Shown piece after piece: positions 10,795 to 46,700 of a stretch of DNA of 64,000 bases (its first letter is position 1; the number at the start of each line of letters is the position of its first letter). The DNA comes from Bryopsis sp. KO-2023. Lineage: Eukaryota; Chlorophyta; Ulvophyceae; Bryopsidales; Bryopsidaceae. Where the stretch lies: assembly GCA_030272585.1 (NCBI GenBank), contig BSYQ01000004.1, positions 3,038,001-3,102,000 on the forward strand, read 5' to 3'. The position numbers and the translations under genes were made by a program. Under the pieces are notes generated by a model that saw only the letters and a list, made by a program, of their open reading frames with translations, searched no databases and was not told the DNA's origin.

Positions 10795-11197
10795 TGCTGT
10801 AAAATCGATCGATTGATCAGGAGGCAAAGCCCAGCCAAATGGAACGACTGAAAACGAGTGGAGTGGGGACTGCCCAAAGCGACGACCCTGAAATCAACCA
10901 AATGATCGCGCGAAAGTCAGCCATGGATTCTCACAAATTGACGCCCACAGTACGACATCAAACCGTCTTCACACTCGATTCCACACTCAAGGACATGGGT
11001 TGAGGTTACAGGTTTCTGGCAGCGCTGCGCGTTGGCGCATTTTTGGTCGCGCACATCAAGGGAGGGAAAATAATGGAGAACACCTGTCGCCACCCCTCGT
11101 TTTATCGAGACGTCGCGGTTTCAGGGCGCTGGGGCATCGAACAGGCGAAAGGGGGAAAGGAAAGCATCTCGACGTTTCCTCTCCAGCCAGTCGAAAC
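10795..11197. promoter_or_regulatory. Bidirectional upstream region, TBCA / ARP2
   Basis: 403 bases between the start codons of tubulin cofactor A (-) and ARP2 (+). It is less A/T-rich than introns nearby and contains GC-rich patches (gcagcgctgcgcgttggcgc near 11020-11040) and two GACGT/ACGTC cores (11108-11113, 11169-11174). No TATA-like box was identified. A common control of two cytoskeleton genes is possible but is only an inference from the arrangement. Confidence 0.4.
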
Positions 11198-14100
11198 ATG
11201 GAGAACAGGATGGAGGCCTCGAGGAAGAGGGTGGTGGTTTGCGACAATGGCACTGGGGTATGTTCATCACACCAAAAAGTTTGTGGAATCGATGGCGCTG
11301 TGACGTCTTTTTGACGACCCTGGACGTCCGAAATCGTCCTGATCCCTGATTTGGAGTTCCTACTTTTAAAAGCGAACACAATATTTTACATGCATGCCCA
11401 AAAACTTGAATCTTTGCCACTTTTTCAATCCATACCCTGCAGCACCAGTTTTTCTCGACCTCCTTTTTTCGATTATTGCTTACTGATGACTGCTTTTTTA
11501 AATCCCTTTTTTTTTGCTACCCAAGTTTCTGAAGTGCGGCTTCGCGGGGGATAACTTCCCTCGTGCTTCCCTGCCCTGCATGGTCGGCCGCCCGATGATC
11601 AGATACGAAGAGAAAATGAGCAGCCGATTTCTCAAGGTGAATTCCATGTTCTGCATCCACAAATCCTGTTTTCTAACATTGAGCCATTTTTTTTTCAGTT
11701 GATCACATATGACCAGCAGTAGGGCACCATCCATGCTCCTCCAAAAATCTCAAACGGTTTCGGAAGCACTGCAAGAGACACTCTTGCCGCCAAACTATAC
11801 CGTCAAAAACAGAGAAACAGTTAAACTGTTAACTGTATTATAGTTGTTAGCACTGTAACTATACTGTGTTAGTTAGTTATACACTGTATATATATATAAC
11901 TGTGTGGTTGAACCCCACCGGGGATCAACTAATCATGCTTTCCCTTAGGATGTGATGGTTGGGGAAGAGTGCGTGGAGCAGAGGCACCAGCTCCAAGTTT
12001 CATACCCCATCAACAACGGGGTGGTCACTAATTGGGAAGACATGCAGCATGTGTGGGAGCATGCCTTCAGCCAACGGCTGCACGTGGATCCGACCGAATG
12101 CAGCGTGATGCTCACCGACCCCCCCTTGAATCCCAGGCAAAATCGGGAGAGGATGTTCGCCACCATGTTCGAATGCTACGGATTTCAATCTGCGTTCATT
12201 CAAGTTCAAGCCGTGCTTACGCTGTATGCACAAGGTGGGGATGGATGAAAAACACCACCGTGTCGATCGATTTCCTTGATTTGTTTTTTTACCGCTGGAC
12301 AGGTTTTTTTTTTAAACGCTAGAACTGAGGTTGATCGTTTGTCCGGCTGGCCCTGTGTTTTTTTGCTTGTTTTTTTTTTTTTTTTACTTAAAATAAATTG
12401 TATGTTTTTTTTGGCCTGTGTGATAAATCAGGTCTTCTAACAGGGATCGTGCTGGATTCAGGCGATGGCGTTTCCCATGTGGTGAGGGAACCCCCCCAAA
12501 AAAACTCAAATTATGTAATAAGAAAAAAAAGCTGTGTTACTGTAATACGCAAATCTTTCGCGCTGCTTTAGGATCGCTCGTCTTTTTTTTCGCCTACCTT
12601 ATTTTCGTCTCCACAGATGGGCACGAAAATAAAGCAGTGCGAAAATAAAGCAAACGCGTGATTGGGTATAATCTGTAGTTACAAACTTGCGTACCTGAAT
12701 AGCCTTGGTTTTTCCGCCTGCTTTATTTTCGTTCCTGCTCTTTTTTCGCCTACCTTATTTTTCGTGCTTTGGTCCGCGCGCGAAAATAAAGCAGCGCGAA
12801 AAGATTTGCGTATTACAGTATTTGATTGGCAACCCTTCCCCTGCTTCCCTCCCCAGTTTCCCAGATGTTGAATTATCTGAAAAAACCCAAAACAACGAGA
12901 AAAACAAGAAAATACAAAAAATAGAAAAAAAGTAGAAAAAAAGTATTTTCTTTTGCATATATTTTTTCCCAACTCATCATTGGGCACACATTATCGATAT
13001 ACTACATGTGCATTTTTTTTTCCAAAATCAGGCTGGGTTTTTTTTGAGTTTATTTATTATTTATCTTTTTTTTTTCTTTCATTTTTTTTATTTTGAGTTT
13101 GTTTTTTCGTTTTTTTTCCCTCGAAGGTACCTGTGGTTGATGGATATGCCTTTCATCATTTGACAAAGCGGCTGGATGTGGCTGGCAGACACGTCACTTC
13201 ACATTTCATAGATCTTTTGACTCGGAGGGGGTATGCCCTCAGTCGGACCGCCGATTTCGACACCGTTCGAGCGATGAAGGAGGATATTTGCTACATTGCT
13301 TATGACTACAAACGGGAGCTCAAAGTGAGCATCCGTTTCGTGCATACGTATACCAATCCAAGAAATCAAGCCAACATTTTTTTTTTTTTAATCTTGAAGT
13401 TCCTTCAGTTATTGTTATATATTATGTGCAGCACGGGAAAGCAAAACAAAGAAAAACATGTATCTCAAAAAAAAAAATGAAAATTAAATGTATGTCTAAA
13501 AATAAGACACTTGAGTCAGACCCAGGGGGGAGAGAGAGTTGCTGATTTTGTTTTTCGTTTGCACAGCTTGCTCGGGAAACTACTTGCTTGATGAAATCTT
13601 ACACTTTGCCGGATGGGAGGGTAATAAAAGTCGGACCTGAGCGTTTCATGGCTCCTGAGGCACTCTTTGCGCCAGAAGTAATGGATATCGAGGCGCCAGG
13701 CATTCCGGAGATGGTGTTCAACTGCATCCAGGTGGGGTCACCTTTCCTTTTCCTTTCCCTTTTTTTTTCCCAATGTACTGACAGTGCCCAATTCGTTTTT
13801 TGTTCATTCTGGAATATCATGGAATGGAGTTGATGCGGATTGGTTATTTTGCCACTTTTTTGGGCTTTTAGAAATTGCTTCTTTGTTTTTGTGTTAAATC
13901 ATGCTTCCGTTTTCCATCAGGAGGCTGATATCGACAATCGAATGGCTTTGTATCAGCATGTGGTTCTCAGTGGAGGGTCGACCATGTATCCTGGAATGCC
14001 CAGCCGCCTTGAGAAGGAAATCAAACAACTCTACTTGAATCGTGTTCTTCGAGTAGGATCTCAAATATCCTATAAAATCATGAGTCAATTACTGATCCAT

Positions 14101-14550
14101 GGTTTTAACCAATTATTCTTATATTAAATCATAAATTAATGATTAATGAATTAATCACTGATCCGTAATTGGTTTCAATCAATTATGAAGACGGGCTGCT
14201 TTTCACAGTCGGAAGAGTGTGTTTCAGGGGTAGAGAAAAAAAATACTTTGGCGTGATTTGTAGGGGGACCAGGAGGGGATGAGAAAACTGAAGTTGAAAG
14301 TGGAGGATCCTCCAAATCGGCTGAACTTGGTGTTTCTCGGGGCAGCCGTGCTGGCGGACATCATGAAGGTGAATTCATGAAAGGTTCCTGCAGCTGACCT
14401 CCCAAATTCTGGCTGGCGCACCCAATTAACCCCAGCGTTTTCTTTTCGTTTTTTTTTTTTTCCAAACAGGACCGTCACGAATTCTGGGTGTCACGAGAAG
14501 AGTTCATGGAAGACCCGTATCGAGCGCTCAAGAAATGCGGACAAGTGTAG
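11198..14550 (+). CDS. ARP2: Actin-related protein 2 (Arp2/3 complex)
   Basis: Subunit of the Arp2/3 complex, which starts branched actin filaments. Nine exons: 11198-11257, 11526-11636, 11949-12234, 12432-12481, 13127-13324, 13567-13731, 13921-14052, 14264-14368, 14470-14550. They give 395 aa, against about 394 in animals. Actin-fold landmarks are all present: VVVCDNGTG (phosphate 1 loop), [47 protein letters not shown] (phosphate 2 loop), [37 protein letters not shown] (adenosine region), and [14 protein letters not shown]. The set fits ARP2 rather than conventional actin or ARP3: the [17 protein letters not shown] block and the C-terminal FWVSREEF match. Intron 4 (12482-13126) holds a small inverted-repeat transposon. 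Function appears intact, with no break in frame. Confidence 0.96.
12538..12820. mobile_element. MITE-like element with 33-34 bp terminal inverted repeats
   Basis: A 283-base non-coding element inside ARP2 intron 4. The left end (12538-12570, starting tactgtaatacgcaaatc) and right end (12787-12820) are reverse complements over about 33 bases, with one extra base in a T/A run as the only difference. Both ends carry TA at the border, as expected for a TA target duplication of the Tc1/mariner/pogo type. There is no transposase frame, so it would be non-autonomous. Inside, the phrase ttcgcctaccttatttt occurs twice (near 12589 and 12745), and cgaaaataaagc-like motifs recur on both strands, so the interior is itself partly repeated. 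Near-identical ends suggest recent insertion. Confidence 0.85.
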
Positions 14551-19913: not shown

Positions 19914-22406
19914 CTAGTGCTCCGGATTCAACCCTAACCTACTCAAAACATTGTGACCTGCTAGTTCGCTTCCACAACTACTGCCTCCAATGAAGCAGGC
20001 GGGTGGGGCATCGCAGCACCCAGAGCTGGGGCCGGATTCCAGAACTGGAAACATACCCCCATCTGGAACACCCAGGTCTTCGCCTCGCTCCATGGCAATC
20101 GAAGATGCGATGGCCAGCAAGTCAGGCTTTACTGGGTATGACTGCACCAATACTTTGGCTATCTGAAGAGGTTTCATAACCTTCAACAAAACACCGCAAA
20201 ATTCAATGCGCTCCAAAACAAAGATATCAACCACTCATGCCAGTCAACACATATTCCAAACTGTGACAAATGATTACTTCAATTGTTCTTTTCTTCCCCC
20301 CCCCCCAAAAAAAAACCAAAAAAAAGGCAATGAAAAGCCTTCTTTTCCGCTCGGTGTGAAAAGCGTAGTATCGAAAGGTTCCTTTTGTGGAGGTTTTTGT
20401 TTTCTGGAAGCTTCAAAAACTCACCTCCTTGACAAATGCAGTCACAAAATCGAGCATCGCTCTGTGCTCGGCCCTCAAAATCTCCTTCAGCCTGACCAGA
20501 GTTTGGTTCGCTTTCAAATATTCGACAGCAATCCTGTGGCCGACCGTGGAGCTGGGCAACGCCGGCTGAATGGTGAGGTTCAGCTTCCCCCTCTCAGCCA
20601 ACAATCGTTGCAGCTTCTGCAACAGCATCTTTCGCAGCTGAATGATCTCGAGCTTTTGCTCGTCCGTCAACTCAAGGGTCGCCTACACAAAACAATGCCA
20701 CCATCGCATCAGGTCCATCTCAAATCAAACTGCAACTCGCCCTTCACACTGAACATCATTTGGACTTTGCATTTTCCACTTGCATGAGTCTTGTCTCTAT
20801 CTTTCTTGTATTTTGTGTTGGGGCCCCTCCTCGATTTTCCCATTTCAGCCGATCCATTCTGCTTACCACAATGCTTTTCCATTGTTTCAGCTCTTCAGCT
20901 TCGGTTTCCTTTGCGTCCCGTACGTGCATTTTCCCAGCGGACACGGGGTTGACCGCATTGAAGCTGAGGCACAACATGCAAATCTCGTTGATCAACAGCT
21001 CGATGCGCTCCATCGCCCCGGTGCCACCGGTGCCAACCTCGACCAGAGCTTCGGAAATCTCGGTCACGTAGGCCTGCAACCGAATTTTTTTTATCAGCCC
21101 TGGTGTGTGCAGATTGAACCATTTTCCGGTGTGGGGTGATTGGGCATATCAAAAACAAGCGAATTCCTGAGTGAAGTAGAACCACCCCTTTGGTATACCA
21201 CGATTTTCACACCTCTAATTCTTCTGTCTAGGAACATAAGGGTCTACCTACTGCAAGAACAGAATCATACACTTGCAAAAGTGTAATTTTTCTCTTTCCT
21301 TCTTTCTTCTTTTTTTTTGGGGGAAAGGGGGGGTGGATCAGTTCTTTTTTCTGCTACACAGATTTTTCTCGACTTTTTTTTTTTCGTTTTTGGCCATGCA
21401 TCCAGGACAATTTTGGTGAACCCATTTGGTCGGTGGTGAGCTGCAGCAGTCAGTACCTGCCAGATCTGCATGACTTGATCTGCAGTCATTTTCTTCAAAT
21501 CAGCGCGACTCAGTTTGACCTCCCTCCCTTTCAGGCCCGACAGAGTGAATCCCTCCGCGCGGTCTTTTTCCGCCTCATCATCGCTCCCCACACCCAAAAT
21601 GCTGTTATCCTCTTGCATTGCCGTGATTTGCTCATCCCGCATCGACAGAACCTTCTCGAGGATGCTGTTCTGGCTGTGCAGCGCGGAATTTTGCATCTGC
21701 AAGGCGCCCACTTGGGCTCTGAGGTCGTCTATCTCGGTGTGCAGGCCACTAACCTTGGCTTTTTGCCGTTCGCGGAAGCGCCGTTGCGCCAGGCGATTCT
21801 TTTCTTGCGTGACCTGTTGTTTCTTTTGGACGATCCCATCGTCGGTATTCGACGAGGTGCGTTTGCGTCCTCTATGTCCGGTGGTCGAACCTGCGCAACG
21901 CCGTTCAGCCCGATCAATTCACCGCTTTGAAACCCCAAACGGAGGTGCGAAACCGTCGACGTAAAACCGCATATTCTAAATATACTTTCTCAACGACCTG
22001 AAGGTACAAAATTCACGGTCGAACTTTGCTCACCGGATTCAGCGGAGCTCTTTCCAGCGCCCGCCTGGAACACGAATCCCGGGTCACCTCCAGTTGTAAC
22101 TACCTGAGCATCCCCGGGGGGGAGTTGAACCCCCGCCTGCGGTTCGCTGGTATTGAAGGGATACGGAAGATCCTGATGTTGAGGCTGAGGCTGGCTACCG
22201 GAAGGATAGCCTCTAACCATTCCCGACCATGAGGGCATCGCGTTGACGTCTTGGAGCATGTAGTCAGGGTTGTCTGAAACTGGCTGGAGGGATTTGAGAT
22301 AGGTGTTCACTGTATCGTCCACGTCCAGGAAAGCGTCGACTAGATCAAGTGACGATAGAGGATTTAGGTTCAGCCGGCTGTCACGGTCACCACCGCTGGC
22401 GTCCAT
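19914..22406 (-). CDS. bZIP transcription factor, green-algal type
   Basis: Sequence-specific DNA-binding regulator expected in the nucleus. Five exons, 22406-22034, 21890-21457, 21073-20867, 20682-20425 and 20180-19914, give 512 aa. The bZIP is textbook: Asn156-x7-Arg164-x9-Leu174, then leucines at 174, 181, 188, 195 and 202 in perfect heptads. The basic region reads EKNRLAQRRFRERQKAK, of the type seen in green algae rather than the common plant A/G/S groups (from memory). Residues 1-120 are acidic to Ser/Pro/Gln-rich and may activate transcription. The 270 residues after the zipper are mostly helical (for example MERIELLINEICMLCLSF and LRKMLLQKLQRLLAERG), with a Gly/Ser/Cys-rich tail. Targets are unknown. 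An ACGTC-containing site (near 21953-21960) lies in its own first intron. Confidence 0.88.
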
Positions 22407-24588: not shown

Positions 24589-25298
24589 GAGAAATTCAAT
24601 CGATAAGAATGCAGGTCAAGGAAAGAGCATTGATGAAAAAGATTGAAGCCTCCCCCCAACTTTGGTCGTGCCTGGAGGGTGTCTTTTGAATGTGTCCACC
24701 CTCAGGGCAAATTCTGGGGGTTGGACAGATTTGTTTTGAATAGTCGATCCACCCCTTTGTACAGACATACATGGAACCTTGTGCTCCTCAATTGTTCACA
24801 AAACGCTAAGGGGTTCGCTGCATCAAGCTGTTGGTGTGGTGAATCACCAAAAAAAATCAGAATGGCAAATTTTGGGGCCACAAAAGGGCCACATTCACCC
24901 AAAGTTTGTAAGGCCTGGGCCACATCCAAGAAATTAATCGAGTTTCCACAAAAATCAAAACCAACATTAAGTAAATGCTATAGAAACACCAAGCCTTGTA
25001 ATTTCGGTTTTTGAAGTGGAACCCACGTTCTATTTTTTTCGGACAAATTGGGGCCACAAAAGGGCCACAACTGGATGAAACGGCCAAATTTAGGGCCACT
25101 TTGGGGCCAGTGAAATTGAAAAAAAATACACTGGTGGTGATTGGGTCACAATGGCAATGTGGGAAAGATTGTTTTTTTAATGAACCGAAGCCGTCCTGAC
25201 GAAACAACAGAATGTTGCGTGATGCGCGAATTTGGTATCAATTATTTTTGGTTTTCGTCTCTTTATTACGGTTTTTCTGTCATTCTGCGCCCTGCGGG
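24589..25298. other. Spacer with repeated GGGGCCAC phrases
   Basis: About 700 bases with no supported gene. The phrase ggggccacaaaagggccac occurs at about 24879-24897 and 25052-25070, each preceded by a caaatt-type stretch. More ggccac/gggcca words surround both copies (24917-24932, 25091-25111). This looks like a short duplicated segment or a remnant of a dispersed repeat. The far end must hold the promoter of the giant LRR gene. Confidence 0.45.
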
Positions 25299-28200
25299 AT
25301 GAGTTATGCCAGGGCCTACGCCCAAAGAGCGAAGTCCCCCTCGCAGGTGCGGCAGAAAATGAAAGACGGGCCCCCACGCTTCCTCTCGGCTATATTGCTG
25401 TACTTGCAGACGCGCAATCGAAGCTGCCTATCCAGTTGGTCGCACTCGCTGTAACCGCCCAAACAAGAAAAAAAAGCAAGGAAACCATAAGGCTTCCGCA
25501 GTTTGTCGCAGCGATCTCGCAGGTTGCTTCTTGTGTTGGAGCGTGAAGGCGTCAAGGTGCCTGAAAAACTTGCATAGAATAAACTTGCTGAAGCAATTGT
25601 TTTCTGTTCAAGGGATCCAATAGTGCTTTGGCACCTTCTCTGCCCACTCACCACGAAGTTTTGGGGATTGCAACTCCGCCAGGCGCAGCAACCTGCCCCA
25701 AACCACCTGCGCCAACTGCACAGTCAGCGGTTGGCATTGAGGCTAGAACAGAGTTTCAGACGGAAAAAGCGTCACGTGATCCAGCCTCGGCGCCAGCTGG
25801 AGGAAACACAGGTATGGCGAGCTGCCGTGAGAAGATGGGCTGCACGAAGCCACCGCCTAAGGCGCCGAGCTGGGTGACGAAACCAAGTCTGGGTTCCAGA
25901 CAAAGTGCAAAAAGAACAGGAAAGAAGGAGAGGTAAGGCACACCCTCGACGACAAGATGCATTTGCAACTCTGGTTGCATTTGAAATGCTTTTTAATGAA
26001 GATAGGCCGGACATCTCCAGTATTGATCCATTATGCTTATGCTTCTATCAATTTGCTGCTCCTGGGAATTGCAGCAATTTCGTTTGGGTTCATGCAAGAT
26101 GACCAACACAAGCATGTCCTGCTCAATTCGATCATCAGGGTCAAAACTGTTGGCTTGGCAAAGCTTCTGAGGACGATGCCTCACCTTTTTGAGAAAGAGA
26201 AGATTTCTGTGGTGGATAAGGGTGTCACACACCTCACTCAACTACCAGAAAGGTATCACAAAGTGAAGGTGTGTCTTCTGTGCTATAGAAATGGATGCCT
26301 AGTCCAGCACAAAAGTTGGCAGATGAGCTGACATGGTTTCGCTTTGTTCCGTCAGGTCATGTACATCAGCAAGAACAAGCTCCGCTCGCTGAAGGGAATT
26401 GAACAGTTTCCTGAGTTGCGGATGCTATCCGTGGCATATAATCCACTGGATGATTTGGATGTGTTTGGCTTCCTCAGTGGTGCAACACCCGCTCTAGAAA
26501 ACGCATCCTTTTTTGGTTGCCCTGTGAGTGGACTGACAAACTACCGAGCCCATGCGATCGCAAAAGTGCCCAGCTTGCAGAAACTGGATGGAAAATTGAT
26601 AGATGAGGAAGATCGGGCAGCAGCAACAAAAGTACTGGAGAAGGAGCAGATGACAATGAGCTTGATGGTGCACAATGCCTGTCTAGTTCACAAGCTGGTG
26701 AGACTTTGTTTTTGGCGTTTTTGCCGTTTTTCGAAGAGCTCCTTCACTACCAGGCTGATGCTCCCTTTGAAAATTTTATCTGCGCACCTGCTGTTTACAA
26801 ATATACCCCAACTACCCATAAACTGACTAATTTCCTGGTCAGGGATTTTTGGGTCAATTGATACGAATGCACACAGAGCTGCGAAGGCTGATTTGTCGCC
26901 AACATGGACCTTTCTCACAAATTCCCCCTGCTTCTTCGGTCCATATTCCAAAGTTAATGAAGATGTGGGATTATGAATCCACAGTCGGTGCTCAGGTGCT
27001 CCCGAAATGTTGCAGCAATTTTTTTTTCAGAATTTAACCTCAATCAAAGCACATCATGAGGCAGTGCACATCAGGAATAAGGACAGTTTGCAGTCTTACT
27101 TCAGCATCATAGAAGAAAAAGTTGATGAAGGGTGTTCATTTTGGATTTTGCCAAGTCGTGTCAACGTTGAGCCCATCTCAGGAATCGTAGTTATGCAGGG
27201 CAGGAGGTTGATCAGGAACGCATTGCATAGAGAGGTTGCTCGGATGCAGACACCAGAGTCCAAATCATCCAAAGGGGTTATTTCCTTGGAGAACTTCGAT
27301 CAAGCTGCAGCAAGGGTGAGTACACACCATCGTTGAGAAGCCACACATCCACAGTCATGAACCACCACACTGGATCAATTTTCTTTTCCCCTTGGTGGTG
27401 TTCAGCTGTTGCTTTCCTACACCTGTGAAGGTTATGGCAGCACAACAACAAGCCATTACAAACCTCATCCAGCGCATTCATGAAGCTCAGGAGGATGCCA
27501 AGCTTGTTGCACTAGAAATGGGGTCTGGTCTGATATCCAGTATGAGGAGAAGGCAAGAAGAGAAGGACCAGGAACTTGCACATGACAGGTAGGGGACTGC
27601 CACCTTGGGACTCGAGCACTCATGTTGAAACCACATCTCCTTTTTGGAAAATGCTGGATGTTTCCAAGGTTGGCGTGACCCGCCTGGTTTTTCAGGGAGG
27701 AGTTGATTGCCAGCCTGAGGGACTCCCTCGAGGGATTGAAGGTAACAGTGGCGGAGCGTTCGTTGTCCCCATATTCGGTACGAGAAAATACAAGTTTTGG
27801 CGGCCCAACACAAGTGGAACGTGTCGTTTCCTCTCAGGAAACGACACGTGCATATTCTGAGTTTGCTTGCTTTCATCGCAACAGGACTCTCTTCACCAAG
27901 TGAGGGACGAACACTGCGCCGAGACAGGTCAGCATACTAGTGGCACAAAGCTGCAGTGAAACTGGATCTAGGGTTTCCATGACAGGAAGCTTGTGAGGAA
28001 CCAGTTTCTTCGCCTCCCCGTTTACTAGCTGGATTCTCGACGAAAGATCTCGCACGAGATCTTCAGCTGGCGTGTCTGTGCACGCTTTCGTGGGTCAGCC
28101 GCCCACCGTTTTTATTTTCTGTGAAAATGCCAGTGATGTAAGATCTGTTGTGGTTACTGCCTGACCTATAGGGAGAAAGAAAGAGCACCAGCAGAAGACC

Positions 28201-31200
28201 ACAACTTGCAGCAAACGTTCGGGGGTGCGTAGGGAGCCTCAGAAGAAGAGTTCTGATGGACAGCTCAAAGAAATAGCGGGCGAGACATATCTGCTGCCCC
28301 ACCGCCCTGCAACTGTCGCTACTGCAACGGTCCTCGATCGATCAAGGAACGTGAAGCCAAGACCACACACGTCGGCGGGGGATCGACAGTTGCCGGAAAC
28401 TGTCAAGGGCGTCGCAGGCTATTGCATTAAAGACGTCGCCCAAGCGGCCGCCCTAGGCAGGTTTCGACACGTAGTTGGGGGGAACCAAGTATCGCCTGTG
28501 GGGGCACGGAACAACTGTGACGCGCCAGACATCGTGGTGGAACGCGACAAAATGATGGCGTCAGGGATGACATACCCAGGACAAGGAGCCCAGCCTCCTG
28601 CTCATCCTTTGCCTTCAGAGACAGCAGGAACACTTGATCAGCGAGCAATGCAATACGGCTGTGTCCTCAACGACCAGCATGGCCAATGGGAAATGCACCT
28701 CCAATCGCCAGACAGATCCCCCATGTGGGCAAATGAACATTGCAATGTGCAAGGTGTCCCCCTCCCGGAGTCACCTGGCGTCCTCTTCCCAATACCTCAA
28801 GCCGCTGAGAGAATAATTTACTACAACCAAGGTGACGCAGACGAGGGAACACCGCATATCGAGCCCGTTGCACTTGCTCCTCATGATGTATGGACATCAC
28901 CGACACTTCAACCTCCTCCTAACCCCTCTGGCATAAGGCCAACTGATGCTGCATACCTGAGGACACCCCCCTTCAACGGTGATATACCCCAAACAAGACA
29001 ACATGAAATGAGGGCTTGCACCCACAGGCAAGTGGGCTCCTTTGGTGGGGTTGTTCATCGTGACAACAGGCTTGACTCGATGAATTTACTGGGTGCTGGC
29101 CATAACCCCCAGTATGATACGAGTATGGCCCCTCAGCAAATGCGGCCCGTCCATGGCAACCTCGGGGAACAGGTGTCCTCGGTTCCACCGAGGGATGGAG
29201 TTTGCAACATATATCCCAGTTCACCTCCTGGGCCAGCCCCTCTGCAGCCATTCCATTCATCACACTGTAGACATGCAACATCAACGTCACAAGAGCAGGA
29301 ATGTGCCCATCATGAAAATCCTAGGCATCAGAATATCAAGGAACAGGCGACAAAGAAATATCGTCCACCTCCTAAAGAAGAGTCAGACAATTCAGACTTC
29401 GTTGGCACATGTGGGGAGGAAGTCCCCCCGAGCAAACAATCTCCTCACAGGGATCGAAACATACAGGATGTGCAACAAAAAAGAACACTTCCTGGGAAAC
29501 CAGTAAGACGCTGTGGGCGGCAAGGACGGGCTGACGACTCATATGATGGGGAGGAAACGGCCAGATCATTTCCGGTAGACCTGTATTTCGATAGCCTGCG
29601 CGCCAGGGGCAATCACAGCCCCTACCAAGCAGGGCAACCACAGGTAGGAGTGTTCCTTTGTTTGCCACCGATCGCGCTTCAATGCTGTCATGAACGTAGA
29701 CGCGCGCGCGTCAGAATCGAGGTCAGGGTGTACTCCTTTACAATAGGTCTGGTGTGCTTTGTGATTACACAGCGCACAAGTTCAGTGAATCGACCACCGC
29801 ACGGGTACGATGCAGCCGCAAACGTTGAAAGTCTCGAAGGCAACAAATTGCAAAAGGCTCGGCTCGAAGTCAAGCTTCTGCAGGTAAAAAAGGCATAGAA
29901 ACACACACACCCAAGGATATTACATCCGTAGAAGCCACCTAGTACAGAAACAAGTTGAGCTTGACCTTACCACAAATATAAAAAGCGCCACAATGATGGT
30001 GATAAATCGTAGGAGAGTATGTTGGAGGCGTTGGAAGGCAAGAAAAAGCTTGAAGAACATGCATCCCGCCTCGTTCGAGATGGGACTTCAATGAAGAGAG
30101 CATTAGAGGTGAGATAGATGTTGAAATCTTTGGGTGAAAGGGCTAGGTGCTTGGAGTCATCTTGAGATTTGAAAAACATTCTGTTTTGTATCAACTCTCC
30201 ATTTTAGGATGAGCAAGACAAGGTGCGGCGTCTTGAAGAGAGCCTCAGGTGCAAGGATGACCTGGAACGTCGTGCTATCTCTACATTGGCTGAGCTCCAA
30301 GCTCTATCGGAGGAGAAACAGAGGTTGAATCATCAGGTACTGAATGAACACTGAGTGAATCCTATCAGTTTACGAGAGTGGTGCAAATTATGGGCCAAGA
30401 GGTTCCTTGATATGCCTTAGCTTATATCAGCCTCTCCACTCTTTCACAGGGAGGGGTGATTCCTCATTCTGGCTCTGGTTGTGGGTTGAAATAAGGAGCG
30501 TCAAGCAAATTTACGTTTGAGTAAGAAACATGTGTGTCGCTTGCAGCTGATGAGAGAGCAAGCGGAACGCCAAAACGCAGAGAATACATCGAAACAATAC
30601 AAAGAACAGCTCGAAATACAATCCACCAAGGAAGAAAGAGAAGTGAAGATGTGAGTAACCAGGAGTGAGGAGAACTGAGAGTGTTGTTCGCGTGAAAGCA
30701 TTTTCAGTGTAGAATGTGTCTCGCAGTTTGCGACTGGGAGCGAAGGCTCTGAAAAGGCGCATGTTTTGGGGCCTGTGGACGGCGTGTGAAGTTTCAAAGA
30801 AGAGTAAAGAAAGATACCAACTCGCTGAAGATGTGCGCGAGGGAAAATGTAAACGTCAATCTATGCGACACTGGTGGTTGGTGGTACACAGAACACGGGT
30901 AGGTCAATTTTCTGAAGGCTTCCTCCAGCAAGGCATGTAGGTCGACAAATAACACTTCCTCTTATCCTTGGCAGGTGATGAGGATGATGGCGATCCGTAG
31001 GAATGCGGACCTGCTGTGTGGCGCTTTGGTGAACTGGCGTGTATACATACATACTTTGAGGTTGGTCACGAGAACCCCACCAATTCGGCGGGCTTCAGCA
31101 CTTTTCAGATGGTCGTGCTCTGCCGTTCAATCACCTTAACTCCGTTTGTGAGATTTTCGAGTAAAAACCTATTCTGACTTTGCAGAGACGAAAGAGCAAG

Positions 31201-34192
31201 AAACGCCGAAGCACGAGGCCATTACGAAGGCCTCCTGAAGGATAGAGCTTTTCAGGGATGGTGTTTCTTCGTTGGGGAATGCAGGCTCGATTACATGGAT
31301 GAGGCGGATGCCAATGCACTGGCACAAGAATATCACGAATGCATCATTATCAAAAGGGGCTTCTCTGCTTGGTTGCAATGGTATCATTGCTCGGCTCTTC
31401 CCAAGGTGCACCCTTACTGCAGAGCTCGGCCTCACCCCCTTTCGAATTTCTGATGTTGAGACTGTATGGATAGCTGATGATGATTTTTTTGCACAGCTGG
31501 CGAAGGTCCGCAGAGCTCAAAATCACAGCCAGCGACGGGTGAAATCGAACGCGTTGCAGGCATTTGCCACAGAAGTTCAAAGAAAAAATGAGGAGCGAAA
31601 CGTTATCGCGAAAGCGAAACGGCGGCGGCAGAACTTGATTTTGAGACTTGTCTGGAGAGCATGGCTGGTGAGGAGAGGGTGAAATATTGAAATCCCTGCA
31701 AAAATGAGAACAAGGATACTGTGGTTGTGTTCTTGGTCAATGAAACCTCGCGTGCATGTACTTTCCACAGGATTTCGTCGAACATCGCGCTACAGTTCAG
31801 AGACTACAATCCACCGCCGATCTTCATATCAGCTGGCGAGCCCTTGGGCGATGGCGGAGCAAGCTGAGACAGGTCCAGCAGGCAAAAGAAAACGACGCCA
31901 GGGCTAGGTGTCTACATGAGGTTCTTGTTTGCCGGCGTGTGGTGCGATTGTGGAAAGGTAGAATCGTCAAGCGCCACAGGCGGCGCCTTGCCGACTCGCT
32001 CTCCCGCGAACACAGGACTGGTAAGCACAATCAATTGTTCGCGCGTTCAATGATGTGGGAGAAAAAAGTTGTCAGTGTCTGTTTCAGGTGCCTGCAGTGT
32101 CTCTGTTACTTTGTTTTCCAAACTTTGTGCTGAACTCTGAGCTTGTTTGTATGTTGCAGGGGCCCTGAAGTATCACGCACTTTCCCATTGGCGTGACTAC
32201 ACACAATTCCATGTGGAACAGCGTCATCATGAGCTCGCAAAAAGAAAAAAATTAACCCACCAAGTAGCAGAGAGGTGGCTCAGGCTAATAGAACTGTATT
32301 TCGAGCAGGAGCGAAAAGCTAGAATCGCCTATCGACTTTTTGGGAAACTACAACGAGGTGCTTTAGCACGGTGTTTCTACAACTGGCGAGTGATACTCAC
32401 AAACACTGAAGACAGGCGGTCAATGATACAAGAGGCAATACGTCGAGCGGACGAAGGGAAGATGGCAGAGATACTATGCTGCTGGCGCAGGTACAGGGAT
32501 AAAAACAAGATGTTTCAGGTTTTGATTGTGAGGGCCTGGCAACAGCTTTCTCTTTCCTTGCACCGTTCGATCGCTTCTGCATTGCTTGAACGGTCGTCGA
32601 TTTTTAGTGATTCGTTTTCTTATGAGAGGGGTTGATTTTGTTTTTTCCTTTTGAATGACAATCAGTGTTTGTAGATACGGATCGGTGTAATAGATTGTGA
32701 GGGATGGAAATTGAAATGGTACGAGGTGATTAGGTACATCTGGGAACTCCATCGAGAGAATACTGAGAGGCTCCAGAAGCACAATGATTCTCTCCAGCAG
32801 GCCTCCGACAAGCTGAAGGCTAGAAATGCAATCCTTGAAGCTGAGAATCCATCGATGGAAAAAAAACTTGCTGCAGCTCTCGAAAAGCATAGAAGCATGG
32901 CGGCACAAGCGAATAAGTATCAAGAGGAGCTCTTTCTCATCAAGGACAACTTGCTGCGAACGGAGCAAAACGAGCAGGCGGCTCGGAATCAGGTTGAAGA
33001 GAAGAAACAAGAGATTGAAGAGGCGAAGCTGGACATTCAGGAGCTACAGGTATGTTGGAGCTCTGGACTGTGTGCAATTTTTTAAAAAATGTATTGTGGA
33101 GACAAGAGTTATCAATGTTGTGTGAGCACAACATGCATGAGGAGCTCCCATTGACGATTTCAGGCATGCAAAGCACAGCTTTTACAGAAAGAGGACCAAC
33201 TTCGCGGAGAAATGGAAGAGATGGTTGACAAGGCGAAAATCAGAGAGAAGCACTTGGAGGATGGAATTCAAAGGTCAAACAATAACTCACCAATATCCTG
33301 GGTTTACTTTCTTTTTGGGACCTTCTCAGCAAAGGAGATCAACAGAGGCAAAACAGCGGTAAATAAGTGTAGACAGTTTGACCTTGTTTATGCAGGCTAG
33401 TCATTCAAGCTGATGCCCTCGAGCGAGAAGCGTCCGAAGCGCAAGAGGAAACCAACAGCCTCAAGCAGACTCTTCTTTTCACAAGCTCGAATATTGAGCA
33501 GGCGAAAGAAGAGAGCTCAAAAGAAGTAGAAGAACTCCAAAAAGTCAAGAACAGGTTGCTACCATTTGTGCGTTTGGTTGCCATGCCCAAAGTACATTAC
33601 ACTTTTGCCAGGAAAACTCACCCTGTGAATACTTTTCAGGTGGGCAGCAGCCGCAAAAGAACTTCGTCAACAGCTGGAACATAAAGGGGCTGAAGTAATG
33701 AGGTTGGAGGCGAAGCTCTCGGATGCTATCAAGGCAAAAGAAGAGGCTCTTGCAACCGTCAAAACCCTCACCAGGCGGCTGGTAGCAGTAGAACCTCTTG
33801 TAGAACGGCAACTGAGCATTGTTGAAGAGCAGACTGGGTGCACTCCCCAGGTAGGTAGGCTTAACGGCGAAACACCTTCCAGCGTTGCGTCAGCGAGAGT
33901 AGCTGATCGTTTCTGAGATATCTGTGCCTTGTTGTCTTCTAACAGCAATTTTAACGAACAAAAACCTTTGTTTCCACAGAGTGGAGGGGCTGACGTCCCG
34001 CCAAAAAACAAGTCAATCGACGACGCTACCCAGGGAACAGCACGTCCCAAGATAAACGAGTCGCTGGACATTAAGAAGCGGGAAGGAAATTCCAGTAAGC
34101 AACAGGTCTCATTCGAACTAGATTCAAATAAGAATGCTGAGGATGGGGATGATTCAGCCTTGGAAGCGACCCTAAAGAAGTTGCGAGAATGA
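25299..34192 (+). CDS. Giant LRR / proline-rich / SFI1-repeat / coiled-coil protein
   Basis: Likely centriole or basal-body protein (inference from architecture). Model of 25 exons: 25299-25346, 25613-25932, 26139-26268, 26356-26697, 26843-26995, 27031-27315, 27431-27588, 27696-27777, 27885-27927, 28172-29643, 29773-29883, 30013-30108, 30208-30336, 30547-30650, 30727-30898, 30975-31060, 31186-31405, 31497-31667, 31771-32020, 32160-32518, 32675-33049, 33164-33273, 33396-33554, 33640-33850, 33980-34192. All phases agree, giving 1932 aa. Residues 140-290 are SDS22-type LRRs (ISKNKLRSLKGIEQFPEL) with an LRR cap. One 1.47-kb exon (520-1011) is Pro/Gln/His-rich and disordered. Then coiled coil, an SFI1-like Trp-repeat block (1158-1577; HWRDY, FYNWRVI), and a C-terminal coiled coil to about 1880. 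LRR plus coiled coil recalls LRRCC1/VFL1, but I know of no SFI1 repeats there. Weak points: the first exon (the alternative is ATG 25814), the donor at 27777, and the GTTTTG donor at 32518. Confidence 0.8.
27819..27849. repeat. Perfect 14-bp stem, 3-base loop hairpin
   Basis: Left arm 27819-27832 (acgtgtcgtttcct) and right arm 27836-27849 are exact reverse complements around CTC. It sits in the predicted 107-base intron 27778-27884 of the giant LRR gene. A stem this strong in a short intron could affect splicing, or the stretch could be retained; the reading frame stays open through it. Confidence 0.85.
29699..29712. repeat. Alternating CG palindrome gacgcgcgcgcgtc
   Basis: A 14-base palindrome with five CG steps in the intron 29644-29772. 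Alternating CG can adopt Z-form DNA. No function is claimed. Confidence 0.6.
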
Positions 34193-34967: not shown

Positions 34968-37132
34968 ATGTCGTGGAATGTAATCAGGTCTCTTGCACAC
35001 TTCCAAGTCTTTCCTTTCTTTTTTCCCACCTCGTGCAACGCACACATGAAAAATTTAACTTCAGAAGAAAAAAAAAACTCTTCCAAGGCCATTTGAAAGA
35101 GCGCAGGATGTGTCGCCAGAAAGAACGTACCAAATAACCAAATGGTGTCTGCAGGCAACAGAAGGATTACGCACTGTCCCCCAGGAAAGACACAGAAATG
35201 GATGGCGACATTGAAACCACGGCCACTCCAGATTCTCTGGTTGGGCCGATCGAACGCGTTGCTCTCAGAAAGATTTTGAGCGAACCACCAAAGCATCGTT
35301 CCTCAAAAGAGCTGGCTCCCGTCTATCGTCTCTTGCAGAAGATAGAGTTCGTTGCAGCCCTGGATTTGAAAGTGCAGGAGGAGCTGGCGAAAATACTGAA
35401 TTACGAGTACTATGACCCGTATACCGTCGTCTGCAAACAGGTGTGAATGGCATGAGCTTGCACACTCTTGTGTTGCTCGGATCCCAGAAGCTGTTATCAC
35501 CGACCCTATGTTTGCGTTGCAGGGGGACATAGGAACGGAATTTTACATCATCATCTCTGGAGCGCTGAGCGTTAAAAAATGGACTGGTGAGCTACGCCGC
35601 AACAACGGCATTCTCATTGATTCTAAGCATTTGCAGTTGCACACAAGTCGCTTGATCGTTGGATCGTTCCATCTAACCTGCAGACTCCTTTCTGCAGATG
35701 ATGGGAATCTAGTTACTATTTGTACCCTGAAGGCTGGGCAAAGCTTTGGAGAGCTCGCCTTGGTTGAAAAAGGAGGGAAAAGAGCCGCCACAATCATAAC
35801 AACTTCAGATGTGGAATGCCTCACTGTCGATGGTGAGCAGTATAGAATGCATCTGGGACGCATTCATCGAGAGGAGCTCGAAAAAAAGGTAGCATTCAGG
35901 TTGCAAAGTGTAGCTTGCTGGCTCATGCCCACCTTCAGCGTTACATCTTGAGTCAAGGATTCTGGAACCGTCTGACAAACGAGCTTCACTCAGGTGGACG
36001 TTCTTCGCCACCAGCCCACCTTCCTTGGTTGGGGGCAGAAAGAGCTGGAACATCTGGCATCCATAATGATGGTGAAGAAAGTCCCCTACAATACTGTAAT
36101 CTTCGAGCAAGGGAGCGAGGCCGACGCTTTGTATTTTGTGAAGTCTGGTGAAGTGAGGATCGTGCGGAGGATGCCGCCGTCGCGGGTTGGATGAACAACC
36201 TGGGAGTCTTTGCATTCACATTGGTACCCTTCACATTCAGAGTTCAATAACTGTATCGTTAAGTCTCCAACACATATGTTCCAGCAAGCCAACTCCTTAC
36301 CACGATCGTATGTATATAACGAAACAACATAGAAGAACGGGCCTACTTCTGTGAGACGTATTGAGTGACGAGATGTTATCGTGGTTTCTCCCCTCAGGAC
36401 ATCGTGGAGCGTCTAACGACCGACCCCATGCTCTCTTCGCGCTTTGCCCCAGATGTGAAAATCGACGATAGATTCCAAAACGTGCCGGATCCCTTGGTCA
36501 CCTTCCCTAGATCGGTGCCTTGCACTCCACGGGGCTTCTTCGACACGCCGCCAAAGTCATCACGCGTCAAAAAGAAGCAAGACGCATTGAGAAAACAACT
36601 GTTGGAGGACGAGGTGATCGACGCTTGAATGCGGCTCATAAGACTCATGTTCTCGATTCAAGAATATGAACCATAATACTCGTGCAGGTTTTCGTCGAGA
36701 TAATGACTTTGGGCCCCTACTCGGCGTTCGGTGAAGTCGCCGCCCTGAACGGGGCGAGAAGAGGTGCAAGCGTGATCAGCAATTCGTACACTGAGCTTCT
36801 GATGTTGACGAGGTTAGCATCATTTGCATGCACTGTTCTGTAGAACCTCGACCCAGAAACTGTGGTCTGACAGGGTTGTTTTGTCTTGGTACAGACATGA
36901 TTTACTGAACAAGGTGAATGTTTCTACTCGTCGGAAGTTGGAGAACAGCAGCGATGCTTATCGGGTGGACAGGGATCTGATGATAGATCTTGTGGATGGC
37001 CTCAAGTGGGAGCGATACAAGCATGATTTGGTCCACAGTCTTCTGAGGGAGCAGCAAAAGGAGTTCTACCTGCTGTCGTACACAGACCGCTACAGAGGAC
37101 ACATGAAAAGCGAGAACGGGTGGAAACCATGA
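34968..37132 (+). CDS. Tandem cyclic-nucleotide-binding-domain protein (CNBD2-like)
   Basis: Predicted cAMP/cGMP sensor without kinase or channel parts. Eight exons: 34968-34987, 35155-35440, 35523-35586, 35698-35888, 35994-36185, 36398-36613, 36688-36812, 36895-37132 give 443 aa. If the first exon is wrong, ATG 35198 gives 422 aa. The N-terminal helix LRKILSEPPKHRSSKEL resembles CNBD2-type proteins. Domain 1 reads GDIGTEFYIIISGALSV, then the phosphate-binding cassette FGELALVEKGGKRAATI, with the key Glu and Arg present. Domain 2 reads TVIFEQGSEADALYFVKSGE and, after a separate 72-residue exon, FGEVAALNGARRGASV. That exon (36398-36613, with VPDPLVTFPRS and a Lys/Arg stretch) interrupts the second beta barrel. 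The C-terminus is a charged helical tail (LVHSLLREQQKEFYLLSYTD). It may be flagellar, judging from relatives and neighbours. Confidence 0.85.
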
Positions 37133-41766: not shown

Positions 41767-43414
41767 ATGTGGGCTGTTTGGGTGGTCGTCGCGGCTGGTT
41801 TAGGATGCGTTGCTCTACTCTTCCTAAGTCGAATGAGCCGAAATATAGACAGGAGAAAAGATGGGCCTATCAAAACCATGATCGTATTGGGGTCAGGTGA
41901 AGGGCGCAGATAAATCCTTTGTTGTTGGGCGCGCGCGCGTTGGGGTTGGGGTTGACTTTCCACGGCGCCGAATCGATCTCCGTTGTGTGTCGTTTTGTGA
42001 CTGAGAACGTTTTGGAATTTTCCGTAGGGGGCCACACGACTGAAATGATGGCCGTGGTGCGTGCAATGGATCTTTCCAAATACACGCCCAGGTGCTACGT
42101 CGTGGCGAACACGGACGCTCTGGGGGCCACAAAGGCGATGGATCTCGAACGAGATAAGGTGTTGCTTAGTTCCGTCGCTCGTCGTTCGAATAGAGCCCTT
42201 CGCTCGACGAAGAAAAACCGCAGAAAAAATGAAAAAGATATTCCACGCACGAAGGACCTTATTTGGCTGGAGGGTTGAGAACAAGCTTCGCAACGCAGGG
42301 AAACCTGGAGTGCTCGACGATCGCCAAGATCCCACGCAGCAGGGAGGTCGGGCAGTCGTTCGTGACGTCCACGTGGACGACTCTTGCCTCTCTGGCGCAC
42401 TGTGCGACATTGGTGTGGCGAGAGAAGCCCAAATTGGTGTGCTGACGTCTTATGACGACTATTCTTCGCCCCCAAGTTGTAACGAACCAAAGTTGTTGGA
42501 AGGGGGGTTCTCTAGAGTTGGGAAGTGTCGGATCTGATGCACAAAGGGGAATCCCATACACATGCACATGCACATGCACATGCACATGCACATGCACATG
42601 CACATGCACATGCACATGCACATGCACATGCACATGCACATGCACATGCACATGCACATGCACATGCACATGTCATGCATGCATGCATGTTGATGATGAC
42701 TGATAGATGTTGGGACATCGTGAATCTCACTCACTGATTTGGCTCCTTTTTGACATGCTGCTTGTCAGGTTTTGGTGAACGGACCAGGAACATGCATCCC
42801 TGTGTGCCTTGCTGCCTATGCTTACAGGTGCGATGCTTTTCTTGTTCGTTCCATCGTTGCAAGCAGATGTTTGAAAAAAATAAAGCCCACGCGAAAGGGG
42901 CAGCGATATGTTTTCTGGAATGCTGATGTGTGCAGCTTTTTTTGCGCTCATCAAGGCTGAAACTGGAGCGCCCAGACGCAGCTAATGCAATGTGGTTTAA
43001 CCCCTTGATGTGTCAAAAAGAGTTCCCCACTCACTGGGGAGGAATCAATCATTTGTCCTTTTTTCTTTCTTTTTTTTTTTGGGGGGGGGTCCTGAATCCT
43101 CCTGTTTGGATGAAAGGGATGTTGGACAAATTTGGATCAATGGTGCCTCATTTTTTGCCTCAGAACAGGTCCCTCTGACTGACAAGCGTACTCCCTGTTG
43201 AATTGAACACATGTTCCTTGGTCTTGAATGTCGCAGAGCGGTCGGCCTCGCTCAATCGAAGATCGTTTACTTCGAGAGCATCGCCAGGGTCAAATCTCTA
43301 TCCTTGTCAGGGAAATTGATGTACCATTCCAGAATGGCCGACTGTTTTATGGTGCAGTGGCCGGAACTCCAATCACAATATCCACGCAGCGAGTACAAGG
43401 GACGCCTTTTCTGA
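41767..43414 (+). CDS. ALG14: UDP-GlcNAc transferase subunit ALG14
   Basis: Membrane anchor of the ALG13/ALG14 enzyme, which adds the second GlcNAc to the dolichol-linked oligosaccharide on the cytosolic face of the ER, an early step of N-glycosylation. Five exons, 41767-41896, 42028-42158, 42299-42436, 42769-42827 and 43237-43414, give 211 aa (216 in humans). An N-terminal membrane segment (WAVWVVVAAGLGCVALLFLS) anchors it. Family motifs are all seen: VLGSGGHTTEMMAVV, YVVANTDALGATKA, IPRSREVGQSF, VLVNGPGTCIPVCLAAY, IVYFESIARVKSLSLSGKLM and FMVQWPELQSQYPRSEYKGRLF at the very end, where the ALG13 contact lies in yeast. Catalysis needs ALG13, which is not in this window. Intron 3 holds a long CACATG repeat. 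Confidence 0.95.
41929..41955 (+). repeat. Alternating GC tract next to GGGGTT units
   Basis: In ALG14 intron 1, a (GC)n tract (41929-41939) is followed directly by ttggggttggggtt. The first can form Z-DNA; the second resembles two ciliate-type telomere units but is too short to mean a telomere scar. Confidence 0.5.
42559..42672. repeat. (CACATG)19 microsatellite in ALG14 intron 3
   Basis: 114 bases made of 19 perfect copies of CACATG, followed by a related catgcatgcatg stretch to 42689. It lies in the intron 42437-42768. Open frames across it (His-Ala, Thr-Cys and similar dipeptide runs) are artefacts of the repeat. The unit contains CATGCA, the RY element of seed-plant promoters, but there is no reason to assign that role here. 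Confidence 0.97.
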
Positions 43415-43753: not shown

Positions 43754-46700
43754 ATGGATTCCCGCCTCGCTGGGGTATCCATACCACCGGTGAGTGGCTA
43801 GCAAGCAAAACACCCACACCTTTCCACCAGAAGTGAAAAGAATCAAGTGGGAGCTTCATTTTCTCAAGGCGCGAAAACGCTTTTTTTACATCCATCAATC
43901 ACGATCGACGACTTTCGCCACCAGGATTCGCAGCTCCCGCAAGAAAATCACCATTCTTGAGAACGATTCCCCTCCCATCTCACCCATTTCAGCCCTCCAG
44001 ATGCTTCTCTTTGCTCGGCATCCGTTTTGAATTCATCAATCCCACAGGTGGATGAGGCGCCCAACCGAAACCGGGCCCAACCTCCACCCCGCTTCCTCAC
44101 CAGCCCAGGCAGTCCCCACAGGAAATCGGTGAAATTCAACATTACCCAGTCTAGAGATGTGGATGCCAAAAATTTTCCAGAAGAAAAGGCACAGACGCGT
44201 GTTTCTCCGGACTGGGATGCTGATCTTGAAGCAGGGCTCAACCTCCTGAGGGCAGCTGATGGGTTTGCTGAGCTGGACACCAAACCCCCTTCAGAAGTCA
44301 GCATCGATGATGGGTCGACCATAGAGCCCCTCCCCAAACCATTTCCTGGGGTGAAACCTGTTGATCGTCATGATGTCACCATGAAAAAGGCTTCCATCAA
44401 CGGCCAGGGCCACGAGTTCAGCGATTTGATTGGCATGAAGGAATCCCCGCTTTCTGGGGACCCCTTGGAGAAGGAGAGGGTGTTGATGGCGAAACGATTT
44501 CAGGAGCAATGCTGTGAAATTGACGAACTTGAACAGTTGGAGGGGCTAGCCAGGGCTGTCCGGGGCTTGGACATGCAACAGAGAAAGGGGCCAAGCAACG
44601 AATCAAACAGCGGTGATGGTCAAAAACAGGGCGAAGGAAACCTCGTTGACGTGAATTCTGAACCCACCAATTCTATCAGTGCAGAAAGGAGACAGACTGA
44701 CAAAGGGCTGCCATGCAAAGGTGGCAAAATTTCAGACAGAGAACAGAGGGTGGATAACGGTGCAGGGGAAACAGATGTGGTGGGTGATGGAGAAGACAAT
44801 TCGGCATGTCAGACCTGGAAACCTCTTAGTCAGCCATCGACAACACCAAGCACTGGGGCTCCGGTTCTGAATGACCAATCGAATTTAACGAAATCGGTCC
44901 CAATTCAAGTGAACCGATCCAACAATTATTTTGATGATGTGCATGGTGGCGTCCAGCCGAGAAGTGGAAAGACTGTATTGGTAGGGGGCATTTCATTGTG
45001 CTTTTATGTACAATTCACTTATTGACATTTTCCCTCTCAAAAAAACACGAAATGCCAAACACATTTGGACGCTGATATGGCAAAACTGTGCATTCACATT
45101 CGTAGGCCGATCCAGTCTCATGGAGGGGGAATCAAAGTCTGACCGGCGAAGCCATCGGGCCAACTTCAGTCATTGCCAACCCATCCCAACAAAAGGTTTC
45201 ACCACGTTCTCCCAGGCACCTGCCCTCGAAGGCCGAACTCCAGTCAGACTGTGTTGCTCCACCATACGTCAGACGCGATGATAACCCCCCAGCACTCCAT
45301 CTTGAATCAGCCCTTGCTGGGCAAAGCACTCCACCAGAAAAACCAGGTCCATCGCCTTGCCACCCCTCGATCTCCATCGTCACATGGCCAACAGCCGAAA
45401 GGAAAGCGAGCCAAAAGCCCCCAAGTTTGAGGAAAATTGAAGTGAGGGAGAACGTTGTTGATCCAGACAGACATGACTCATCCCAGGGAAAGTGCGACAA
45501 CGAGGAGGGTCAGAAAGTGTGTGCAGAAGTCAACCTCACGGTGGCGGGTGCCTTTGAATTGCTGGGGATCGATGGGGGCTTGCTGGACCAGCAAGGTTTG
45601 AGTTGCTCGTTCAAAAGGGCAGAAACCTGCAGCATCGATAAGGGTGGCACAACCGATGCAAACTGTGAGGAACAGTACCTTCCCACACGGAGGCAAAGAA
45701 TCAGAGCTATTCAGGTCTGCTTATCACCAAAATTTTGAAAAAATAGGCAAAACGAAGGGTGAACTGGGAATTTTTGCTTCGAATTTTTTTTGTTCCAGAT
45801 TTGGTTGATGAGAAGGATGCTCAGTGGGTTAGCAAATTCTTTCTCCAGGTGATAATGCGTGCCAAAAGCAATTTGCAACGCCACAGAGTAATGGAAGTGA
45901 TGGAGCGGGTGGCCGACATCCAGGAACAGCTCAACGAACAAAGGAGCGGGGTGGAGAGAAATCCCCAGCCACCCCCTCCAAAAAGGCAAAACAAAAATTC
46001 CCAGGAGCAGAAGGCCGCTTGGTTTGGGGCCACCCTTCAATGCGGATCAAGAAACCTGCTGGGTCAGACGCGAGATTCGAAAAAGCCAAAGAGTGGGGTG
46101 ACTGCTCGATGCAACAAGAGGTTGGCGACAGGGGGGGCCACCGAATGGGAGGGGTCGAAATTCAAGATTGCACTTTTGGAGAGCATGCAAGGGAAGCTGA
46201 TGTTGCGATTGGGGATGCTGATTTTGAGGCACAATTGGGAGTGGCGGAGGGATTTGTCGGCCTTGATCGAGACGGTGGAAGAGATTCGGAGGAGGCAAGT
46301 TTTGAGGGGGTGCCTCGGGGGGCTGGTGGCGTTGGTGCACCTTGCCAGAGAGAATCAGGAGAAATGTCGAAGGCAGTTTCTCATGAGGTGAGGGAAAAAT
46401 TCCTTGGAAAGAAGTTAAAAAAAAAAGAAGCAGACACTAACTCGACAATCTTGGGTTTTGAAAAAGTTTGGGGAGAAGGACTTGCGACTGAACGAGTTTT
46501 TTCCCACAAAATTCCTGTGAAAGGCACCCTAATTTCTTCCGACTGGTGAAAAACCTAGGCTGAAGGTCAGGATTCGCTCAGCTTTGCAGTTTTGGAGGGC
46601 CGTCGCCCACCATCGATCCATCATGGAGCAAAAGGTTTCCATCGGGCTGCATGCACACCATCGCCTACTGAAAATATCGGCGATGTCCCACTGGGCGCTG

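Follow-up and report, generated by a model that had tools for sequence, protein, structure and literature searches.

The window analyzed here is a stretch of 64,000 nt from the genome of the green alga Bryopsis sp. KO-2023 (contig BSYQ01000004.1, positions 3,038,001 to 3,102,000, forward strand). Positions 25299..34192 of the window carry, on the + strand, what we read as one large gene, curated as 26 exons encoding 1,875 aa; all its parts described below lie on the same strand. Upstream are a predicted gene at 10839-14550 (+ strand), presumably for an actin-related protein (Arp2-like by eye), and, at 19914-22406 on the − strand, a gene for a bZIP protein with a long C-terminal region (Pfam bZIP_2, E 1.2e-5). 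By eye, a unit resembling GGGGCCACAAAAGGGCCACA recurs imperfectly a few times at 24860-25110, just upstream of the gene. Directly downstream lies a predicted gene for a cyclic-nucleotide-binding-domain protein (34968-37119, + strand; PF00027, E 8.1e-31, in four stretches), followed by a tandem CATGCA array at 42555-42672 (19.7 copies, 99% matches), a second large gene with Trp repeats, and a predicted gene of 20 exons and 1,176 aa on the − strand (54724-63550), which we take to encode isoleucyl-tRNA synthetase.

The curated chain runs from the ATG at 25299 to the TGA at 34190-34192, is phase-consistent in a single frame, and has GT-AG borders at all 25 introns. Retention of the weak intron 27121-27198 gives an alternative model with 25 exons and 1,901 aa. 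The original prediction had proposed a phase-consistent model of 25 exons and 1,932 aa; an open, phase-consistent chain was recovered, with counts a little different from those proposed. For training, the gene finder was given the window plus, from the same genome, 20 other stretches of 10 kb and three short loci (locus L001 was left out later). Run unsupervised, it at first over-merged neighboring genes by means of tiny exons and later split the gene at 31682/31740; manual curation of the splice junctions followed. Across six settings the automatic predictor reproduced 11-12 of the 25 introns exactly, along with 18-21 of the donors and 16-17 of the acceptors. Given this low exact agreement, individual exon boundaries are uncertain, chiefly those of exons 1-2, 5-8 and 10; the weak points of the model are exons 1-2, the boundary between exons 6 and 7, and the intron of 35 nt at 26996-27030.

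Coding potential was scored with a model trained on 22 other loci (L002-L023, some of them mutually overlapping) and on those genes of the window that lie outside 24-35 kb. Because the gene calls used in training came from an earlier model exposed to the 24-35 kb region, the independence of the test is incomplete. The modeled frame is the best of the three in 24 of the 26 exons; only exon 2 (25613-25811) and exon 16 (30727-30898) depart from this. In exon 16, the first exon of the Trp region, the modeled frame is the worst (−6.9 versus 1.4 and 2.2), and even the modeled frame is negative in exons 5, 6 and 16. Among the introns, 22 of 25 are negative in all three frames (exceptions: 25812-26074, 27589-27695 and 27742-27884).

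A single gene is the simplest reading of 25299..34192 and, on the frame and splice evidence in the DNA, a likely one, as the original prediction of one protein had it; a single transcript would then be expected. That prediction had also named a possible break at about 28.0-28.2 kb, where the junction is intron 27928-28171. Two separate neighbors on the same strand would encode an LRR-helical protein, whose gene would end at about 27.96 kb, and an Sfi1-like coiled-coil protein with its start in exon 11 or earlier. If exon 10 is read on, a stop is reached at 27957, and the first in-frame ATG of exon 11 is at 28552; the resulting gap of ∼590 bp is near the ∼780 bp that separates the gene from the next one predicted downstream. 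The acceptor of exon 11 is weak as well (its score of 1.2 lies above the 1st and below the 5th percentile of training acceptors), and the predictor did split the gene in one early run and in one of the six later settings. Against two genes, the first 380 nt of exon 11 (28172-28551), which precede that ATG, score +12.1 in the modeled frame versus −2.6 and −12.7 in the others; being coding in frame, they would have to serve as a leader, or the second gene would need a further first exon. Moreover, the breaks placed by the predictor (31682/31740 in the early run, 30789/30831 and 31682/31740 in the one later setting) all fall inside the Trp region and not on the LRR side, and the Trp pattern continues across them. 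None of the six settings broke the gene near 28 kb, which counts for little because five of the six also fused the next downstream gene. A break there is thus unlikely on the coding evidence, while the predictor bears on it weakly, and we consider two genes improbable.

Under the one-gene model, the N-terminal exons (25299..26202, aa 1-125) encode a Pro/Ala-rich and then a pre-LRR segment; this part of the chain is of low confidence, and the frame of exon 2 is ambiguous. The LRR domain, with an LRRcap-like end, occupies aa 126-245 (26203..26649, interrupted by intron 26269-26355). Pfam LRR_9 matches the whole protein with E 2.5e-6 and 27.6 bits, under the cut-off of 30.5, and the excised 227-aa part with 30.8 bits, just over it. 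The repeats end in a cap-like segment, NYRxxxIxxVPxLxxLDG. Among solved structures (best 60 of 71 distinct sequences at E ≤ 1) the first relative is dynein regulatory complex subunit 3 (DRC3; E 3.4e-10), its alignment extending through the LRR cap, followed by LRRC23 (E 1.9e-7), ANP32A and U2A'. Judged by sequence similarity, the domain is a genuine member of the SDS22/U2A' class, the type originally proposed for it. The LRRs are followed by a putative helical region (aa 246-463, 26650..27927), delimited by composition, whose heptad signal is weak (p 0.01). With the LRR query, two further LRR places were detected in the genome and set aside as not being close paralogs; they presumably encode an ODA7/DNAAF1-like and another LRRC-type protein.

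These similarities bring up the question of whether the gene is an ordinary member of a ciliary LRR coiled-coil family, VFL1/LRRCC1 or DRC3, in which the Trp pattern is incidental. The layout of LRRCC1 (PMC8983040) is similar (LRRs, then disordered regions, then a coiled coil), and DRC3 is the best solved match. However, when the LRRs of human LRRCC1 (approximate sequence) were searched against the genome, the best match was at C3:4904645-4904956 (E 5.4e-16), a candidate VFL1/LRRCC1 gene; the gene studied here was absent from the 12 matches listed, none of which fell in the window. Since C3:4904645 matches this approximate query and the window gene is not among the matches listed, the latter is unlikely to be VFL1/LRRCC1, and the LRRCC1/VFL1-like kinship originally suggested gives way to DRC3 as the closest solved LRR. 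With DRC3 and LRRC23, in turn, significant alignment is confined to ∼100 residues of the LRRs, while the PDB chains have 555 and 342 aa, respectively. As the Trp pattern is also far outside that of shuffled sequences (see below), we regard ordinary membership in either family as very unlikely.

Downstream of the helical region, a single exon of 1,472 nt (28172..29643) encodes a predicted disordered linker of 491 aa (aa 464-954) with 55 Pro, 19.3% Pro+Gly and a coding score of +36.2; a periodicity test against shuffles gave no heptad signal there. Two predicted coiled coils flank the Trp repeats: the first, without Pro, at aa 975-1100 (29833..30650) and the second at aa 1546-1800 (32750..33835). 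In both, the 3.5-residue hydrophobic periodicity exceeds that of all 400 shuffles, while the Trp region between them shows no such periodicity (p 0.44 versus shuffles). Both the huge disordered exon and the two coiled coils had been foreseen. A tail of polar composition (aa 1801-1875, with the stop codon, 33836..34192) completes the curated chain.

The Trp region (aa 1101-1545, 30727..32749) has 20 Trp and a single Pro in 445 aa. Thirteen anchors picked by hand are spaced 28-37 aa apart in 11 of 12 cases, with one gap of 67 aa. A Trp period of 32.5 aa was as strong in none of 3,000 shuffles, which were scanned on a coarser grid of periods, and in none of 5,000 on an equal grid; when neighboring Trp were merged and the random sets were held to a minimum gap, the counts rose to 1, 4, 19 and 19 of 5,000. 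The published Sfi1 motif is Ax7LLx3F/Lx2WK/R with a periodicity of 33 aa (PMC5112337; the motif also in PMC8622359), and the centrin triad as L8xxxL4xxW1 (PMC8622359). The score of our region for this consensus is 73.75 versus a shuffle mean of 53.8 (SD 4.2), a value reached by none of 20,000 shuffles.

Individual columns were counted over all 20 Trp of the region, unselected, with p values uncorrected for the eight columns. Ala occurs at −16 of 6 of the 20 Trp (p 0.0096) and Phe/Leu at −3 of 7 (p 0.0096); Lys/Arg follows at +1 in 9 of 20 (p 0.02). Hydrophobic residues are marginally enriched at −8 (9/20, p 0.045) and not at −7 (5/20, p 0.60). Hydrophobics at −3 combined with −7 or −8 are found at 8 of 20 Trp (null mean 1.96, p 0.00025). 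When 34 offsets were scanned, Ala ranked top at −16, Phe/Leu top at −3 and Lys/Arg second at +1. The region thus has the ∼33-aa tandem repeats of Sfi1-repeat (SFR) proteins, and its agreement with the consensus is statistical, single repeats that fit every position being few. AlphaFold, given exon 21 alone, predicted a helical structure with low confidence (mean pLDDT 45.6).

The second Trp-repeat gene, at 44001-53581 of the + strand, carries its Sfi1-motif repeats at about aa 1450-1860 of the model; it begins with a disordered part and includes a long coiled coil. Pfam Alg14 matches the model's first exon (E 4.8e-9), an exon that is part of a different gene. The ranking of the three columns over the 34 offsets is identical in this gene (∼44.0-53.6 kb). 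Its period is not significant (p 0.25; 1,534 of 5,000 as strong), so that it is the motif columns only that support its likeness to Sfi1.

The Pfam Sfi1 profile (PF08457) gave no match to the Trp region at E ≤ 1. Over the whole genome (91.09 Mb, 28 contigs) its one match was at C14:2441684, with E 0.87, and none was at the locus of the gene; the C14 match was set aside as Sfi1, being below the cut-off and in a frame that we assume to be IFT172-like. The original prediction had advised this profile as a check on the product and had named a lack of SFI1 signal in the repeats as refuting; the outcome in the Trp region was thus negative. The profile matched in none of 14 control genomes, so that it has no positive control. 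Among solved structures, no Sfi1 chain appeared in the two rows returned for the Trp region at E ≤ 10, nor in the nine rows returned at the same threshold for a profile of 18 repeats from both Trp-repeat genes. With profile and structure searches negative, it is the motif statistics that carry the Sfi1 assignment, and given the negative PF08457 search the protein is called Sfi1-like here rather than classed as an Sfi1 ortholog. The SFI1-like (L/F)xxW(K/R) repeats first proposed are therefore upheld in their period and in the −3 and +1 columns, and not by the SFI1 profile.

Searches for relatives of the rod returned only the gene itself: all seven genomic matches at E ≤ 1 lie on its own exons, and the viral contigs scanned held no relative. 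Five of the best six matches listed for a repeat profile of the gene were shuffled sequences and the second Trp-repeat gene was not among the six; in the reverse search, likewise, the first gene was not among the best matches listed. Two Pfam rows in the Trp region, ANXE1_4th and Phage_TAC_18, are below cut-off and were taken as chance. The literature matches listed for Sfi1, centrin binding, LRRCC1/VFL1 and domain architecture (titles and starts of abstracts, with few subscription papers covered) contained no LRR-Sfi1 protein.

Basic helices bearing Trp are typical targets of calmodulin. The partner of the repeats may accordingly be calmodulin or a different EF-hand light chain, or the repeats may form a plain helical rod, the protein then having no link to centrin; the lack of an Sfi1 profile match fits this explanation too. 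What speaks against it is that, in two genes, positions −16, −3 and +1 agree with the published Sfi1 repeat; the spacing agrees as well in the gene at 25299..34192 (that in the second gene is not significantly periodic). We consider a protein unconnected with centrin rather unlikely, if less so than a pair of separate genes.

The genome provides a setting for a centrin-binding protein. Two centrin-like genes, at C3:5534047-5534644 and C11:2221595-2222390, contain pieces 71-86% identical to Chlamydomonas centrin (approximate query sequence), and the SAS-6_N domain is over its cut-off at two places; with both present, centrioles are expected. How centrin fibers are anchored at specific sites is, to our knowledge, poorly understood. 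According to PMC6070942, centrin fibers in Chlamydomonas run between the basal bodies and also join these to the nucleus, and Sfi1-centrin fibers are thought to shorten with calcium.

The computed features (the exon chain, the LRR domain, the period and motif of the repeats, the periodicity of the coiled coils, and the centrin-like genes and SAS-6 domains of the genome) incline us, with some reserve, to the view that the product of a single gene is a scaffold that binds centrin and docks by means of an LRR head. The original interpretation is thereby borne out in part: one gene, LRRs of the SDS22/U2A' class, an Sfi1-like rod and two coiled coils are retained, and the kinship with LRRCC1/VFL1 is given up. 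In such a scaffold, the Trp rod (aa 1101-1545) would form a long Pro-poor helix able to hold up to about a dozen centrins, one per repeat of ∼33 residues, and the coiled coils on either side would pair the rods. The centrin-loaded rod would constitute a fiber that calcium may cause to shorten, the behavior supposed for Sfi1-centrin fibers. The disordered linker of 490 residues would give the N-terminal LRR head the reach to dock on a distant partner, probably at a centriole, basal body or flagellar root.

More tentatively, the gene could represent an undescribed class of centrin-fiber organizer, in which an LRR head anchors a coiled-coil-paired contractile fiber of Sfi1 type at a selected site of the basal body or flagellar root; we find this possible and would not call it probable. 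If it is true, one molecule would supply both the address and the calcium-responsive cable, the LRR head and the centrin-binding rod in one protein would make a testable fiber anchor, and Sfi1 repeats would be shown to be a portable module. Should RNA and binding data bear it out, the combination of LRRs with an Sfi1-type rod would be an unusual scaffold for centrioles or flagellar roots; should the two halves prove to be separate genes, the finding would matter less.

Compared with known systems, the gene shares N-terminal LRRs, a disordered stretch and a long coiled coil with VFL1/LRRCC1 (Chlamydomonas Vfl1p and human LRRCC1, as described for LRRCC1 in PMC8983040), and differs from them in having the Trp-repeat rod. 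With DRC3 and LRRC23 it has in common the LRRs and their cap. CEP97 and the LRRIQ proteins combine an LRR head with helices that bind an EF-hand protein, as is proposed here; their helices carry IQ motifs, whereas those of the Bryopsis protein carry Trp repeats with a period of 33 aa. The Sfi1-repeat proteins (yeast Sfi1, the Sfr family of Tetrahymena and the Sfi1-like centrin-binding protein of Paramecium, PMC5483020) have in common with it the Trp period of ∼33 aa, Ala at −16, Phe/Leu at −3, Lys/Arg at +1 and a Pro-poor rod. The rod of the Bryopsis protein, which differs from this group in lacking a PF08457 match, has 13 anchors as against the 21 repeats given for yeast Sfi1 in PMC5112337, and to the Sfi1-repeat plan the gene adds an N-terminal LRR domain, a long disordered exon and two coiled coils.
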